From a virus, in IMG/VR virus record IMGVR_UViG_3300023257_001087, positions 1-40,741 of that record: a DNA stretch of 40,741 nucleotides; one strand, given 5' to 3'. Of this stretch, positions 1,890-12,402 are shown piece after piece. Position numbers and translations under genes: made by a program. The notes under the pieces are model-generated. The model saw only the letters and a program-made list of their open reading frames with translations, made no database searches and had not been told where the DNA came from. Numbering within the stretch: the stretch's first letter is position 1; every line of letters starts with the position of its first letter.

Positions 1890-2780
1890 TTATATCTCTT
1901 GTAATATGCGTGTGGTTTTAATAGCCGTGTCGATATTTGGCTCGGCCTTACCGTCTATTAAGTCCTTAAAATATTGCATTGCATATTTTAGATTGTGTTT
2001 TTCGTCGGTATAGTGCTCATCGTAACATTGGGTTAGTTCCGGCGGTAATGCCATTGGGATCTTGTCATACTCGGTTATTTCCAGTTTTCCGGTAATTGAA
2101 TCAAACTTTATAGTACCCTTGTCACCGTAAATGACGACATTGCTTTCTTTCCCCGGGTAATTTAAACTTACATTTATTTCCCCGGTTAAATCGTTGTTTT
2201 TGAAAAACAGTGATCCCGTTGTAACGATGTCATTGTTTTTGACATAATCTCTGGTTATCCAACTCAATGATTCTAAGTCAATTATTTGATCTAGTACAGC
2301 CATGTAATGAGAGGCCAGCAACCAATAAACATTATGATTCATGAATCGGCCAAGATGTACTGACGTCATTTCAATGTGCTGTATTTTGCCAATCCTAGGG
2401 ATTGATTCCAGCATATGCCGAATCCCCCGGGAAAACTGAAATGTATATTCAACCCCCAATTTCACATTTCTTTCGTTGGCGGTATGCTTAAGCCTTAAAG
2501 CCTCACCCTGTTTTAATGTTATAGGCTTTTCACAAAATACGTGCTTGCCATGTATTAGCGCACCCATTGCAATACTGTAGTGTGTTTCAATCGGGGTGGC
2601 TATTATTACCGCCTCAATATCATCCCACATCCTAGACATATCTGTTTTTGAATCGCAGACATGCTTTAAATTAAAAAAAGCCGGAATATACTTTTCCAGC
2701 TTTTCACCCCAATAACCGTGTCCTATTAGTGCTATGTTTTTATTGCTCTCCAAAAACATTCTAACATTTTTCATTTCCAT
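1890..2780 (-). CDS. Gfo/Idh/MocA family NAD(P)-dependent oxidoreductase
   Basis: The N-terminal Rossmann fold begins IALIGHGYWGEKL (residues 16-28, GxGxxG class). It is followed by AVIIATPIETHYSIAMGAL and HVFCEKPIT, where the EKP lysine is the catalytic residue typical of this family. The C-terminal beta-sheet domain contains HLGRFMNHNVYWLLASHY. The family oxidises or reduces sugar hydroxyls on nucleotide sugars (for example 3-keto sugar formation before transamination). The gene overlaps the radical SAM gene by 10 nt; an internal ATG at 2774 gives an ATGA junction and could be the true start. Within the glycan island it probably makes a modified nucleotide sugar. Confidence 0.9.
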   Translation of the reverse strand: MEMKNVRMFLESNKNIALIGHGYWGEKLEKYIPAFFNLKHVCDSKTDMSRMWDDIEAVIIATPIETHYSIAMGALIHGKHVFCEKPITLKQGEALRLKHTANERNVKLGVEYTFQFSRGIRHMLESIPRIGKIQHIEMTSVHLGRFMNHNVYWLLASHYMAVLDQIIDLESLSWITRDYVKNNDIVTTGSLFFKNNDLTGEINVSLNYPGKESNVVIYGDKGTIKFDSITGKLEITEYDKIPMALPPELTQCYDEHYTDEKHNLKYAMQYFKDLIDGKAEPNIDTAIKTTRILQEI

Positions 2781-4021
2781 GTTTTTAATGCAGTCCTATT
2801 ATATTCATCAACCTCGCCGGAAAGCCGTGCCCGTATATCAAAATACCTTTCTCTTGGTATGTCGGGGCAAAAATAATTGTGGGGGCTTTGATGGGCATGC
2901 ATTGCAAAATCAAAATCTTTATCTATAAGCCCTAAATCTTCACACTCCCCGAATAAATCCGTTCCTACATACGGGGTAAAAAAACTCAGAGTAATTCTAA
3001 ATGGCTTCAAAGACTTGGCAAAGTCTATGGTGTTTATCAGGTCAACTTCTTTTTCCCCTGGGAACCCCAGCATACAATATGCTTTCCATTGTACATTGTA
3101 TTTATTTAATATCTCTGCCGCCTTCTTGAAGTCTTCAACTCGCTCATGTTTGCCAATACGTTTTAGCATGGTATTATCTGCACATTCAATTCCTATGCTC
3201 ATTTGACCACATCCGGAGCCGGTCATCATTTTAATCATTTCTTCGTCTATGGTGTCAGCCCTGGTGTCACATCTCCATTTAGAATTGAGACTATAGGCAG
3301 AACAAAACTCTTTTAATCTTCTCGGATTCAGGGTGAATGTTTCATCCCAAATAGTGAAATAGTCACAATGAAATGTATTTTCTATATACTCCATCTCCCG
3401 CAGGATTCTAGGGGCTGACTTAAATGTAACTTTTCTACCCCATACGTTTAGACTTGCGCAGAATCGACACCCATAAGGACAGCCCCTTGCAGTTATTACG
3501 TGCGCATATCCATTGGGTGAATACTCATCTAATAATATGTCATATCTCGGAAATGGCAATTCGTCTAAGATTTCAACCCTGCACCCCCCAGACTCAAATT
3601 CACCTTTAAAAACTTTTACGTTTTGGGGATATGATTCGGGAAGGATAGTCGGATGATGACCGCCCACAAACACGGGAATACCGCATTTATCGGCGATTGA
3701 TATTATTTTTAGTGCTGATTTATGTTTAACGTTTAGAACTGATATCCCGATTTTGTCTGGCTTAATATCTTCAATGTCTTTTTCTAGGGTTTTCCAAACA
3801 ATATTATCTTCAGTTAGGGATTCTATGTATTTGTCATAATTTTCAACCCTTCCGCAATATCCCTCATAGACCAGGCTTTCCCCCACTTCCATGTTTCTTA
3901 AATAGACCGTGTTTCCTTCTTCTAACAATTTAGAACCAACTGCCAGCAAAGACAGCGGAACATAATCTTGCTCAAGACCCATAAATCTATAAAAGGGTGG
4001 ATTTATCAATAATACCTTCAC
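2771..4021 (-). CDS. B12-binding radical SAM enzyme
   Basis: I choose the GTG at 4021 because GAGAGG sits six bases upstream and the protein then starts directly with the cobalamin-domain strand MKVLLINPPF. That gives 416 aa; a TTG at 4042 would overlap a terminator. Residues 1-130 form the B12-binding domain (VPLSLLAVGSKLLEEG, PVFVGGHHPTILPE). The radical SAM core starts at ARGCPYGCRFC, with the three cluster cysteines at about 181, 185 and 188. Further conserved segments are ITLSFFTPYVGTD and MSIGIECADNTMLKRI. Members methylate or rearrange unactivated carbons in antibiotics, lipids and sugars. Here the neighbours point to sugar or glycan modification, but the substrate is unknown. Confidence 0.9.
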   Translation of the reverse strand: MKVLLINPPFYRFMGLEQDYVPLSLLAVGSKLLEEGNTVYLRNMEVGESLVYEGYCGRVENYDKYIESLTEDNIVWKTLEKDIEDIKPDKIGISVLNVKHKSALKIISIADKCGIPVFVGGHHPTILPESYPQNVKVFKGEFESGGCRVEILDELPFPRYDILLDEYSPNGYAHVITARGCPYGCRFCASLNVWGRKVTFKSAPRILREMEYIENTFHCDYFTIWDETFTLNPRRLKEFCSAYSLNSKWRCDTRADTIDEEMIKMMTGSGCGQMSIGIECADNTMLKRIGKHERVEDFKKAAEILNKYNVQWKAYCMLGFPGEKEVDLINTIDFAKSLKPFRITLSFFTPYVGTDLFGECEDLGLIDKDFDFAMHAHQSPHNYFCPDIPRERYFDIRARLSGEVDEYNRTALKTWK

Positions 4022-4033
4022 TAAACCTCTCCC

Positions 4034-4063
4034 AAAAAGCAAAAGCCGCTCAAAAGAACGGCT
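4034..4063 (-). terminator. rho-independent terminator after glf
   Basis: Read on the minus strand, AGCCGTT and AGCGGCT pair around a CTTTTG loop and are followed by TTTGCTTTTT. It lies between the end of the UDP-galactopyranose mutase gene and the start of the radical SAM gene, so it probably attenuates the operon. A near-copy of the same element occurs at 9950-9974. Confidence 0.75.
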
Positions 4064-4093: not shown

Positions 4094-5053
4094 TTAGATT
4101 CCCCTAATTCTCTCTAGTGTATCGGCGACAACTTCATCCATATTCATGTATCTATACAGGCCAAGCCTACCCATAAACAGGATGCCCCCTTTATTTCCAG
4201 CTAAATACTTATGATATCTGCTTCTTTCTTCTGGGCTTCCCACTGGGTGATATGGGGTTTCATTCTGTGGGCATGGGTATTCATAAGTTATTATCGATTG
4301 TTCAACATTCTGATTTTGCCAGTGAGAATTATCGTAACTTCTGGTGTGTGGCACATCGTGTGTGCATTCATTAATCACGGCAGACATTCGCTTTTTTTCT
4401 TGCCTGTGTTCAAACCTCAAAGATCGGTATCCAAGCATTCCATGTGTGTAGTTATATGCTTGGTCTATTGAGCCAGTGTGAATGATAAGATCACATTTTC
4501 TTTTTCGCCACTCATCCCTTGATACCCTCAAGTGAACGGTTGAACCTTCGAGCATGTTCCCAATCATGTTGGTATATCCGCCCGTGGGGATGCCCTGCCA
4601 TTTATCAGTAAAGAAGGTATCCCCTTCATTTTCCCTTACTATTGGAACGCGGTTTTTTATGTGACCGGGGAGGTCTGCAAATTTTTTGCCCCACTGCTTT
4701 TCGCTATAGTCTTTAAATACAAGATCAATAATATCTTTTTCGGTGAGTTTGAACTGCTCCATTATGCTTTTGCTAACGGGTATATACAAGAGGTGCTTCT
4801 TAGTATTGGCAATTACTTTGTGCCTATAATTATTGAAATGTGCATAACGTTTAACAAACTCCCATACCTCGTCGTTTGAAGTATGAAAAATGTGTCCGCC
4901 ATATTGCTGAACCATAATGTTATTAATCAAACCATCATAACAGTTTCCCCCGATATGATTCCTTATCTCAAATACTTCAACATTATGATTCTCGGATAAA
5001 ACGGCAGCTGCCGTTGCACCCGCAAGACCGGCACCGACAATGATTATCTTCAT
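4094..5053 (-). CDS. glf: UDP-galactopyranose mutase
   Basis: The 319-residue flavoprotein starts with the FAD-binding motif VGAGLAGATAA (GxGxxG, residues 6-16) and the following acidic strand VEVFEIRNHIGGN. Family landmarks are present: YGGHIFHTSNDEVWEFV, KQWGKKFADLP, IPTGGYTNMIGNML and the C-terminal FMGRLGLYRYMNMDEVV. The enzyme converts UDP-galactopyranose to UDP-galactofuranose, the precursor of galactofuranose in O-antigens and other surface glycans. It is slightly shorter than the usual 360-380 residues, but no catalytic block appears missing. Its ATG overlaps the stop of the upstream glycosyltransferase (ATGA). A terminator follows. Confidence 0.92.
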   Translation of the reverse strand: MKIIIVGAGLAGATAAAVLSENHNVEVFEIRNHIGGNCYDGLINNIMVQQYGGHIFHTSNDEVWEFVKRYAHFNNYRHKVIANTKKHLLYIPVSKSIMEQFKLTEKDIIDLVFKDYSEKQWGKKFADLPGHIKNRVPIVRENEGDTFFTDKWQGIPTGGYTNMIGNMLEGSTVHLRVSRDEWRKRKCDLIIHTGSIDQAYNYTHGMLGYRSLRFEHRQEKKRMSAVINECTHDVPHTRSYDNSHWQNQNVEQSIITYEYPCPQNETPYHPVGSPEERSRYHKYLAGNKGGILFMGRLGLYRYMNMDEVVADTLERIRGI

Positions 5054-5979
5054 AGTAATTTTCTCAATGTTTCCATTCTGCGTTCTATTGTGTGATAAGT
5101 CCTGGTAAATTCCCTGCCGGCTTGTGCGATATCTTCATAAGCGTGAGCATTAAATATAATGTCTTTCACTATGGTTTCAAAGTTACTGGTGTCTGCCTTA
5201 ACATAATTTTCCATATCTACAAAGCCAAGTTCATCCATCTCGGGACACCAATTAGCTACCAAAACCGTTCCGCTTGCCATTATTTCAAAATATTTACATA
5301 CGAGCCAGTTAGTCGTTGCTTTTGTTTTCCCCTTAAGCGTTGAGGTAAGGCTGCAAACATATTCACTAAGCTTTCTGGCATATTTATCCCGCACATATAC
5401 TTTTGGATCATTTATCAATTCCGAGACAGGTATGTTATGGCCGGGATGGGGTATAACCTCAAAAATCTCTTGTGATCCCAAAGATGCTTTGTGTCGTAAT
5501 GGATACCACTGGCCATCCGTTACTCCAGTTACTAAACATTTTTTTATTCTTTTATTAAATTCATTTTCTATTGAGAAATACCGTTCGGAGGGGATTACGA
5601 AAGTAGGAAAGTATAGACTTTTGTGTCGATATTCTGAGAAACTGCCCCCAAATGCTTCTTTGTATGAGTACAGTATGAGATCCGCCCGTTCTAATGATTC
5701 CTTTAATACCGTATTGTTCAAATCCTGTAGATATGAAACGAATCGTATCTCTTGTTTTAATTTGCTAATATCCTTTAATGCTTTTGGATAGCTCACTTGT
5801 GGGGATTTAATAGTAAATAGTGTATCCCCTTCTACTTGCCCGATATCTAAAGAATCGGTGCAAAGAATTTTGTAATTAAATTCTTTCGCTATCATTTCGG
5901 CAAAAATGCTTAAATGATCGGCGGGATGCCTGTCCCGTGATACCATTGTGGGGATATAAACCGTACCTCTGTATTTCAT
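5050..5979 (-). CDS. GT-B fold glycosyltransferase
   Basis: From the ATG at 5979 the protein is 309 aa, starting MKYRGTVYIPTM. The same frame is open back to a GTG at 6024, but that stretch is occupied by the epimerase stump in another frame, so I prefer 5979. The C-terminal half has WLVCKYFEIMASGTVLVANW, the glycosyltransferase motif in which a conserved Glu precedes M-[AS]-[SC]-G, and then ENYVKADTSNFETIVKDI. This resembles CgeB/Glyco_trans_1_2-type enzymes. It is coupled to glf by a 4-nt overlap and may use the UDP-galactofuranose that glf makes, but that is inference. Confidence 0.8.
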   Translation of the reverse strand: MKYRGTVYIPTMVSRDRHPADHLSIFAEMIAKEFNYKILCTDSLDIGQVEGDTLFTIKSPQVSYPKALKDISKLKQEIRFVSYLQDLNNTVLKESLERADLILYSYKEAFGGSFSEYRHKSLYFPTFVIPSERYFSIENEFNKRIKKCLVTGVTDGQWYPLRHKASLGSQEIFEVIPHPGHNIPVSELINDPKVYVRDKYARKLSEYVCSLTSTLKGKTKATTNWLVCKYFEIMASGTVLVANWCPEMDELGFVDMENYVKADTSNFETIVKDIIFNAHAYEDIAQAGREFTRTYHTIERRMETLRKLL

Positions 5980-6282: not shown

Positions 6283-7419
6283 TCAATTTACCTTTTTTGC
6301 CTTTCGGAAATATTCTCGGTTGATCTCAAGTGCCATACGATTCCCCCGCAATCCCCTGTCAAAACACATTTTCTTGCAATCCCATTCTGGATTGTGATTT
6401 CGCATAATAACTTTTTTAAACTTCTCCAAATCAGATGTCATTTTCCCGATTCTGCATTGCTTTCCCGTAGGAGTTGCGGTTGTACTACATTTATAAAAAT
6501 AACCATCTGCCCCCGCGGTAATTTGATAATATGAGTATAAACAAACGGTAAAATCATATTTGTCAATATCTGTGTATTCCGGCCCCGTGTAGAATATGTA
6601 AGGTTTTTCATCTTTGCTCTTTGAGACTATTGGTTCAAGTAATTTCCAATATGCGTCGTTATTTGGAATTTCAACTTCCGTTTTGTATTTTCGTATTGTG
6701 TCAAAGCTCTGATTGTAATTACCAAAGGGTATGCCGAATCTAAGGCTGTCTACCCCAAGACTCTTAGCTATTGATACTATGGCATCGAAATTCTCAATGT
6801 TTCCACTTTCAGGAGAAATCAAATAACATAATCTGATTGCATGACCACCACCCGCTTTTTCCCTAATTACACATGCCTGTCTTATTCCCTCCAATATATC
6901 CCCAAACATCTTCCGCTTTCTTGTACCCTTTGTCTTTCCCCAACTCCAGGGTAAGCCAGCATCAATGCTTACCGATAAATAGTCTACTTCATCGGTAGAT
7001 AATCGGTTTAACTCCGTCAATAGCCCGTAATTAGTTTCAAGATCACTAAGGTGTGTGCCGTTCGTATGAATACCAAAATGATTGCCCCATTTTTTTGTCA
7101 TTGCCATGAAGGTCATAAAGTAGGGGTTTAACAACGGCTCCGTATATGCACCACCATAAATATGATATGGGATTTTGCCTTGAAGTTTATCCAGTAGTTC
7201 AAGACAATCCATTTCCCATCGACCTAATGATTTATCAAAGTATGCACCAGCACAGGCAGGGCAAGCCAAATTACACGGTCTTTTATGATCTGCGGGTAAA
7301 TGAATCTCAAATTGACGGGGATAAACAAACTCACCGTTAAAGAATTTACTTTCATCCCAATTAAGATGCTTCATTAACTGTTTATAGTATAAGTACATAT
7401 CGGGGCGGGGATCATTCAT
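6283..7419 (-). CDS. radical SAM protein, SPASM-like
   Basis: The 378-residue protein has the radical SAM cluster motif CNLACPAC (cysteines at 49, 53 and 56) after the strand QFEIHLPAD. It continues with YHIYGGAYTEPLLNPYF, FGIHTNGTHLSD and DYLSVSIDAG, which are successive strands of the partial TIM barrel. The C-terminal region carries further cysteines (VCLYSYYQITAGADGYFYKC, DCKKMC) resembling a SPASM or twitch auxiliary cluster domain. Such proteins modify peptides or sugars. The gene overlaps its upstream GT2 gene by 4 nt, placing it in the glycan operon. The substrate is unknown. Confidence 0.85.
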   Translation of the reverse strand: MNDPRPDMYLYYKQLMKHLNWDESKFFNGEFVYPRQFEIHLPADHKRPCNLACPACAGAYFDKSLGRWEMDCLELLDKLQGKIPYHIYGGAYTEPLLNPYFMTFMAMTKKWGNHFGIHTNGTHLSDLETNYGLLTELNRLSTDEVDYLSVSIDAGLPWSWGKTKGTRKRKMFGDILEGIRQACVIREKAGGGHAIRLCYLISPESGNIENFDAIVSIAKSLGVDSLRFGIPFGNYNQSFDTIRKYKTEVEIPNNDAYWKLLEPIVSKSKDEKPYIFYTGPEYTDIDKYDFTVCLYSYYQITAGADGYFYKCSTTATPTGKQCRIGKMTSDLEKFKKVIMRNHNPEWDCKKMCFDRGLRGNRMALEINREYFRKAKKVN

Positions 7420-9609: not shown

Positions 9610-9707
9610 CACTTCCTTTTGTCCTCTAAAATGTCCATGAATAATGTTTAGGTTGTAGGTAGTTACACCGATAGGTGTAAATTTATGTCCCTTAATATGT
9701 CCAATAG

Positions 9708-9778
9708 CGGGACGTGAAGGAGTTGAACCCTCGGCCTCAGGGTTGGAGTCTGAGATGTTCCCATTACACCAACGTCCC
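9708..9778 (-). tRNA. tRNA-Trp (anticodon CCA)
   Basis: The acceptor arms GGGACGT and ACGTCCC pair perfectly. The D arm is GTGT/ACAT, the anticodon stem TCAGA/CCTGA has one A-C mismatch next to the loop, and the loop CTCCAAC holds CCA. The T arm is GAGGG-TTCAACT-CCTTC. The discriminator is G, as in bacterial tRNA-Trp. CCA is not encoded, unlike in the neighbouring tRNAs. Confidence 0.88.
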
Positions 9779-9782
9779 AAAA

Positions 9783-9859
9783 TGGTTACGGGGGTGAGGT
9801 TTGAACTCACGTAAAATGGCTTATGAGACCATCGGCTTAACCAACTTGCCCACCCCGCA
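9783..9859 (-). tRNA. tRNA-Met-type (anticodon CAT)
   Basis: Acceptor TGCGGGG/CCCCGTA, D arm GGC...GCC with a GG-containing loop, anticodon stem ATGGT/GCCAT with loop CTCATAA, T arm GTGAG-TTCAAAC-CTCAC, then A and an encoded CCA. The T1-A72 pair and the lack of three G-C pairs in the anticodon stem argue against an initiator. It is either elongator Met or an Ile tRNA whose C34 would be converted to lysidine; I cannot decide. Confidence 0.9.
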
Positions 9860-9863
9860 ATAT

Positions 9864-9941
9864 TGGTGTTCCCGATGGGAATCGAACCCACGTAGTCAGG
9901 TTGAAAGCCTGGTGTCCTTATCCATTTAGGACTACAGGAAC
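9864..9941 (-). tRNA. tRNA-Glu (anticodon TTC)
   Basis: Acceptor GTTCCTG/CGGGAAC with one T-G pair, D arm GTCC/GGAC, anticodon loop CTTTCAA giving TTC, T arm GTGGG-TTCGATT-CCCAT, discriminator A and encoded CCA. The spacers in the Glu-Met-Trp array are only 4 nt, so all three are presumably cut from one precursor. Confidence 0.9.
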
Positions 9942-9949
9942 ATTGAAAG

Positions 9950-9974
9950 CAAAAGCCGCTCAATTGAACGGTTT
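9950..9974 (-). terminator. weak terminator-like hairpin, copy of the 4034-4063 element
   Basis: On the minus strand ACCGTT and AGCGGC can pair around CAATTG and are followed by TTTTGC. The sequence AAGCAAAAGCCGCTCAA is shared exactly with the terminator after glf, but here the outer stem is weaker. It lies between the small lipoprotein gene and the tRNA array. Confidence 0.5.
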
Positions 9975-11738: not shown

Positions 11739-11814
11739 TGGTCGGGACGGCTGGACTTGAACCAGCGACTTTCTGTTCCCAAGACAGACACTCTCCCGAC
11801 TGAGCTACGCCCCG
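11739..11814 (-). tRNA. tRNA-Pro (anticodon TGG)
   Basis: Acceptor CGGGGCG/CGTCCCG, D arm GCTC with loop AGTCGGGA, anticodon stem TCTGT/ACAGA around CTTGGGA (TGG), T arm GCTGG-TTCAAGT-CCAGC, discriminator A and an encoded CCA. The C1-G72 pair is typical of Pro tRNAs. It stands alone, 36 nt upstream of the frameshifted papain-like gene. Confidence 0.92.
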
Positions 11815-11878
11815 CACAAAACAAAGTAGGGTAATGATGCTGAATAAAATAAATGCTTTCCTCACGTTTAATCCTCCA

Positions 11879-11910
11879 TAAAAAAACCCGCCATCATACG
11901 TGATGGCGGG
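11879..11910 (-). terminator. strong rho-independent terminator
   Basis: CCCGCCATCA (11887-11896) and TGATGGCGGG (11901-11910) form a perfect 10-bp stem with a four-base loop. On the minus strand it is followed by TTTTTTTATG. It closes the transcript that contains the pseudoknotted element immediately upstream. Confidence 0.92.
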
Positions 11911-11923
11911 GATTTAATTATTT

Positions 11924-12067
11924 GGGTGTCGGAACTGTCGCGGCAGGTAGCTTCTTCCGACACCCGAAGGGCAATCTCTCACCGGCTACGGTGGGAAGCT
12001 ACTTACTCACCCTCCTCTGTTCAGCCCTATGGTCGCAATCCTAAGTCTGTTAAGGTTGGTTGCATAG
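11924..12067 (-). ncRNA. candidate structured RNA with H-type pseudoknot
   Basis: This 144-nt stretch holds no supported ORF but has four helices, two of them long and perfect. GGGTGTCGGAA (11924-11934) pairs with TTCCGACACCC (11955-11965). GTAGCTTC (11947-11954), inside that loop, pairs with GAAGCTAC (11995-12002) outside it, making an interlocked fold. CACCG/CGGTG (11980-11993) forms a hairpin. CTAT/ATAG plus GCAA/TTGC (12027-12067) form another. Complementarity alone does not fix the strand; minus is chosen because all genes and the adjacent terminator are on it. I match it to no known riboswitch or ribozyme. Confidence 0.6.
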
Positions 12068-12075
12068 AGCAGCTT

Positions 12076-12402
12076 TTAAAATCCTGGTCTCTTCTTGTCT
12101 GGTTCGATTAATATTGCCGACCTTTCCAAGTCTTTGAATTCTGTCCATGCTTTATCCCAAAACTTTGAACATTTTATTATGGGATCAATGCGATTTGGTG
12201 CGATTTTACATGCATCATAAAATAAAAAACATTCTGTTCGACAACGACCATACTGTGTTTCTACTATCCTAAGATGTTTGCATTTACTACATACGCCAAA
12301 ACCTTTCGTCAACTCATTGAGGTTTTCCTCTAGCTTCCCCTCAATTGCTTCAGCAAAAGTTTCCGCCCTTTTTAGCTCTTCCTTTCTTTCGTCAGACATC
12401 AC
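12076..12402 (-). CDS. Cys-rich hypothetical protein, 108 aa
   Basis: The N-terminal 35 residues form an acidic helix (DERKEELKRAETFAEAIEGK). The centre carries VCSKCKHL, YGRCRTECFLF, YDACK and IIKCSKFW, seven cysteines that could bind one or two metal ions. The C-terminus is basic. No enzyme family is recognised. It shares one base with the stop of the glycosyltransferase gene upstream and is followed by the structured RNA candidate. The cysteine-rich style recalls the protein at 566-925. Confidence 0.6.
   Translation of the reverse strand: MMSDERKEELKRAETFAEAIEGKLEENLNELTKGFGVCSKCKHLRIVETQYGRCRTECFLFYDACKIAPNRIDPIIKCSKFWDKAWTEFKDLERSAILIEPDKKRPGF

Follow-up and report, generated by a model that had tools for sequence, protein, structure and literature searches.

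Few phage small RNAs have been characterised, and many of the structures found between phage genes belong to no family. Among the closest described systems, the HK022 putRNA is a phage antitermination RNA of around 70 nt with two stems, which lies near early promoters and acts through RNA polymerase (PMC9378689). GOLLD, ROOL and OLE, some of which occur in phages, are non-coding RNAs whose structures include loop-loop contacts (PMC12286853). We analysed the viral record IMGVR_UViG_3300023257_001087 from position 1 to 40,741 (hereafter the window, 40,741 nt), focusing on the region 11,879–12,067, which carries a predicted structured RNA of approximately 190 nt on the minus strand. As in putRNA, which acts on termination, this is a phage RNA made of hairpins with conserved unpaired bases, but it has three hairpins, ends in a terminator and may contain a kissing contact; no sequence similarity to putRNA was found, nor does the RNA match the two-stem, ~70-nt form near an early promoter. 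GOLLD, ROOL and OLE are several times larger, and no Rfam match connects them to this RNA. The terminator-ended small RNAs that derive from 3′ UTRs in phages and bacteria resemble it in following a stop codon and in ending with an A/U-rich linker and an intrinsic terminator, whereas the predicted RNA described here has a large conserved internal loop in its first hairpin (P1) and no family match.

Genomic position and predicted fold

Every plausible gene of the window record lies on the minus strand, as do the helices and terminator described below, and the RNA sits within a long run of these same-strand genes. It starts 5 nt beyond the TAA stop codon of a gene for a 108-aa protein, at around position 12070, and extends to the end of a terminator near 11880; its three hairpins (P1–P3) together span ~147 nt directly after this late gene (Table 1). 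The gene for the 108-aa protein is itself neighboured by a glycosyltransferase gene upstream of the RNA. The protein had no family match in Pfam, PHROGs, NCBIfam or PADLOC, and its conserved CxxC-type cysteines (CSKC, C58, C65 and C78) indicate that it is possibly a small metal-binding protein. A consensus scan found no clear promoter immediately before P1. Elsewhere in the window, a 423-aa protein (2771–4042) is similar to B12-binding radical SAM enzymes (NCBIfam, lowest E-value 7.7e-33, under curated cut-offs); its gene is near glycosyltransferase and methyltransferase genes, and this neighbourhood is possibly surface-modification cargo.

Table 1. Coordinates of the RNA features and the preceding gene in the window
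Feature	Position	Strand	Details
Upstream 108-aa gene	12076–12402	minus	Ends 5 nt before P1; protein 77% identical to its L002 counterpart, whose gene likewise adjoins the RNA
P1 hairpin	12024–12070	minus	Outer helix 12070–12063/12031–12024 (8 bp), variable tip; conserved in L002:6333–6379
P1 4 × 4 internal loop	CAAC 12062–12059 / CGAC 12035–12032	minus	Loop and flanks identical in L002
P1 inner helix	CAA 12058–12056 / UUG 12038–12036	minus	
P2 hairpin	11966–12015	minus	12015–12007 with 11974–11966, 9 bp; strands GGAGGGUGA/UUGCCCUUC
Proposed kissing contact	11947–12002	minus	GUAGCUUC 12002–11995 (P2 apical region) with GAAGCUAC 11954–11947 (P3 loop)
P3 hairpin	11924–11965	minus	GGGUGUCGGAA 11965–11955 with UUCCGACACCC 11934–11924, 11 bp, 20-nt loop
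A/U-rich single-stranded linker	11911–11923	minus	AAAUAAUUAAAUC; between P3 and terminator; one difference from L002
Intrinsic terminator	11880–11910	minus	CCCGCCAUCA CGUA UGAUGGCGGG, then 7 U; stem 11910–11901/11896–11887; from terminator scan

An earlier note made from the sequence had proposed a pseudoknotted RNA in which an 11-bp helix interlocks with an 8-bp helix ahead of a strong terminator. Both helices and the terminator were confirmed on the minus strand: the 11-bp helix is Watson-Crick paired at 11/11 positions and the interlocking 8-bp helix is paired at 8/8, while the terminator stem comprises 10 bp and begins 13 nt past the 11-bp helix. The suggestion that such an arrangement is unlikely by chance was borne out by dinucleotide shuffles of the region, in which a perfect 11-bp helix arose in 8 of 3000 sequences and the interlocked 11-bp and 8-bp pair in none (0/3000). 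The folding z-score over 200 nt was −4.86, and the region ranked as the second most extreme of 542 positions in a scan of the minus strand of the window. In a coarse scan (20 shuffles each), two minus-strand stretches that overlap coding regions (5792–5941 and 4892–5041) had z-scores near −5 and fold as extremely as the RNA region itself.

The outer helix of P1 leads into a 4 × 4 internal loop, giving the layout GCUCUAUG [CAAC] CAA ... UUG [CGAC] CAUAGGGC, and the apical region of P2 in the window holds a small additional hairpin, P2a (11993–11989/11984–11980). When the window sequence is folded by itself, the conserved nested structure is 0.6 kcal/mol less stable than an alternative nested one, but the latter was set aside because the homologous RNA described below does not form it. 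The intrinsic terminator (11910–11887) and its seven U residues provide a 3′ end after a coding sequence, as in a 3′-end small RNA.

Conservation in a second phage record

A single relative was identified through the 108-aa protein: the IMG/VR record IMGVR_UViG_3300017971_004103 (L002, G001; 76,763 bases), in which gene order is preserved on both sides of the corresponding gene. A homologous RNA lies directly 3′ of this gene (L002:6333–6503) and folds straight into the conserved structure of three clean hairpins and a terminator hairpin (z = −6.41), without a P2a hairpin. All 31 pairs of P1–P3 (the outer part of P1 with CAA/UUG, P2 and P3) stay standard through 13 substitutions between the two RNAs. 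In P2, three pairs differ at both positions and a fourth at a single position; in P3, two pairs differ at both positions and a third at only one; and the outer helix of P1 features one G-U to G-C change. The double compensatory changes, five in total, thus all fall in P2 and P3. When 13 substitutions were placed at random, all pairs were kept in 9 of 200,000 trials and at least five double changes arose in 7 of 200,000, figures that lean somewhat towards structure because the strands were set in register by hand, MAFFT misplacing the 3′ strand of P2 around a length difference. For better alignment of the P2 strands, model R1 was built without the P2a hairpin of the window. The matching changes on the two sides of the helices show that the fold is kept by selection, and we are nearly certain that this is a genuine, conserved and structured RNA.

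The comparison refines the predicted structure to P1, P2, P3 and a conserved terminator hairpin, with the 8-bp helix recast as a putative loop-loop contact. Compensatory change, which the earlier note had named as the check on both of its helices, was found in the 11-bp helix (two changes) but not in the 8-bp helix, so that the proposal of a structured intergenic RNA with a terminator gained covariation in a homologue, while the 8-bp half of the pseudoknot is plausible rather than proven. In the window, this contact comprises 8 bp (−10.3 kcal/mol) and is reached by 59 of 50,000 loop shuffles. In L002, an A-U pair is replaced by an A/G mismatch, which leaves a 5-bp core (−6.1 kcal/mol), and 5 bp was reached by 2701 of 50,000 shuffles. 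The L002 counterpart of GUAGCUUC approximately coincides with the 7-nt loop of P2 and that of GAAGCUAC falls within the P3 loop, so that the contact would join two loops in a kissing interaction. It is conserved in sequence and position, and we consider it probable, although no covariation was seen in it between the two records.

Constraint on P1 extends beyond pairing. At fourfold-degenerate sites of six neighbouring genes, the two records are 55% identical (187/337), and the RNAs share invariant blocks that include UAUGCAACCAACC (13 nt), UUGCGACCAUAGGGCU (16 nt) and AGUAGCUUCC (10 nt). The P1 internal loop and its flanks are nearly invariant, which exceeds what pairing requires and points to a candidate recognition site. 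The terminator hairpin is kept with one C-G to U-G change, and its U tract is shorter in L002 (UUUUAU). In agreement with the earlier observation that the region holds no supported ORF, no conserved ORF runs through the RNA: indels between the homologues add up to a net difference of 19 nt, which is not a multiple of 3. Given that this difference breaks the frame on either strand and that the RNA follows a stop codon, no reading frame explains the conservation.

Sequences downstream of the terminator differ between the records. In the window, the terminator is followed directly by a ribosome-binding site and the signal-peptide-like start of the next ORF (11883–11857), and 27 nt around this start match L002 at 85%, while ~191 nt of unrelated sequence, absent from the window, separate the terminator from the next ORF in L002 (6504–6692). 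Retention of the RNA while the following sequence differs speaks against a leader of the next ORF, though not decisively. The extra L002 sequence itself folds into several hairpins (z = −2.98, 6500–6700), including a multi-branched part closed by GGGGUU...AACGCCCC; it has no Rfam match and may be a second unclassified RNA. The window ORF runs into a tRNA-Pro that lies inside it (11739–11865), whereas the corresponding 257-aa ORF of L002 is uninterrupted, and no tRNA-Pro occurs in the part of that record covered here. Further along the window, at 9707–9971, a tRNA cluster (Glu, Met, Trp) follows a terminator-like hairpin, CCGTTCAATTGAGCGG, that is conserved in L002, where the counterpart cluster reads Ala, Met, Trp, its first tRNA having been exchanged.

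Searches for a class or further members

The earlier note could not match the RNA to a known class, and the same outcome was obtained with Rfam 15, where only tRNAs in the window scored at or above the gathering threshold and the L002 homologue likewise matched no family; this RNA class is not in the Rfam catalogue. In a relaxed search, the best non-tRNA match was the Bacillus sRNA ncr1175 (RF02450), a weak similarity over P3 and the terminator that leaves P1 and P2 uncovered and scores 25.1 bits, far under the gathering score of 60; most likely, any two consecutive hairpins would score in this way. In a phage collection, the only match was to a nearby tRNA, and there was no match among plasmid records. 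Searches of viral and genome collections with a pattern for the P1 loop gave matches other than L002 that were rejected, either because P1 pairing was absent or because they lay in unrelated, mostly coding-looking sequence, and when viral contigs were searched with a P3/kissing pattern, L002 was the only record that also had the remainder of the RNA.

Protein-guided searches returned the same single record for both the 108-aa protein and the neighbouring glycosyltransferase, and a profile of the 108-aa protein found nothing in bacterial and archaeal genomes. A related terminase is encoded in three records: L002 itself and two fragments (5.3 kb and 24 kb), neither of which has an RNA match; judging by terminase coordinates, the 24-kb fragment is expected to stop short of the corresponding RNA position. 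The RNA is thus present in both records known to reach its position and was found nowhere else in these searches. A two-sequence covariance model was run over genomes sampled from three phyla, ~400 per phylum, under stricter filters that mean an empty result says little. Its sole match (L180, E-value 7e-4) was rejected: it lacks the P1 motif and has seven non-standard positions, and ~0.3 such matches were expected.

Possible roles of the RNA

In the reading that we favour, with a probability of roughly 0.45, this is a discrete, terminator-ended RNA that acts in trans during infection, with P1 as a putative binding site. The RNA would arise either by release of the 3′ end of a late transcript or by transcription from an internal promoter. 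It would begin immediately downstream of the 108-aa gene's stop codon and run to the intrinsic terminator. P2 and P3 would lie side by side, probably tied by the kissing contact into a compact body, while P1 would present its internal loop, most likely to a protein or ligand. This proposal is supported by a second phage record, in which the homologue occupies the same position, by the five double compensatory changes among pairs that are all retained, by invariant blocks that stand out against the divergence of fourfold-degenerate sites, by the conserved terminator hairpin and linker, by the absence of a shared reading frame, and by the persistence of the RNA where the sequence past the terminator differs. 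It is weakened by the lack of a clear promoter before P1 and the short U tract in L002, and by the fact that the family so far consists of two sequences from one phage lineage. A fuller version, in which these are the founding pair of an undescribed family of trans-acting RNAs with two adjacent kissing-locked hairpins and with an invariant 4 × 4 internal loop in P1 that binds a specific host or phage partner late in infection, is put forward more tentatively.

With two sequences of one lineage, the conservation could equally reflect a role in cis. The RNA may be a 3′ UTR element that shields the late mRNA at its 3′ end or modulates how strongly the 108-aa gene and the glycosyltransferase are expressed, comparable to the lambda retroregulator sib; its position so soon after a stop codon, its terminal terminator and the fact that both records keep it beside the same upstream gene fit this, but the invariant P1 internal loop exceeds the needs of a plain nuclease barrier, and we regard this explanation as unlikely. 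Somewhat less credible still is a cis-acting antitermination RNA like putRNA, which would allow RNA polymerase to read through the adjacent and later terminators, so that late transcription continues into tRNA and cargo genes. Such a function would suit a site directly before a terminator in a long same-strand gene run with more terminator-like sites downstream (such as 9971–9956), and the internal loop and unpaired conserved bases of P1 are the kind of surface that putRNA uses on RNA polymerase (PMC9378689); the three hairpins late in an operon, however, differ from the short two-stem early elements, and no sequence or Rfam similarity links them.

The earlier note had argued against a riboswitch, and for one acting on the next gene our data lean the same way. 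A riboswitch or attenuator in which P1–P3 sense a ligand and the terminator gates transcription of the next ORF would account for an aptamer-like fold followed by a terminator, a ribosome-binding site and a start codon, with conserved sequence around that start. It is nevertheless improbable, as a competing antiterminator pairing is not evident, with no overlap between P3 and the terminator, the element directly follows a gene rather than a promoter, and the ORF that it would control is interrupted by the tRNA-Pro in the window and set apart by unrelated sequence in L002. Type III toxin-antitoxin pairs comprise an RNA antitoxin, usually of tandem repeats, beside a toxin gene. The present arrangement shares that outline, with a pseudoknot-like RNA ahead of a terminator and then an ORF, yet the region contains no tandem (direct) repeats and the downstream ORFs have no toxin-family match, the first of them overlapping a tRNA gene in the window, so this identity is very improbable.

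The RNA combines support from covariation with a conserved loop that is a candidate recognition site, which makes it directly testable. In these two related uncultivated phages, the intergenic slot after the 108-aa gene, at the end of a gene cluster, keeps a structured RNA even as its neighbours, tRNA genes and other inserts, are gained and lost.
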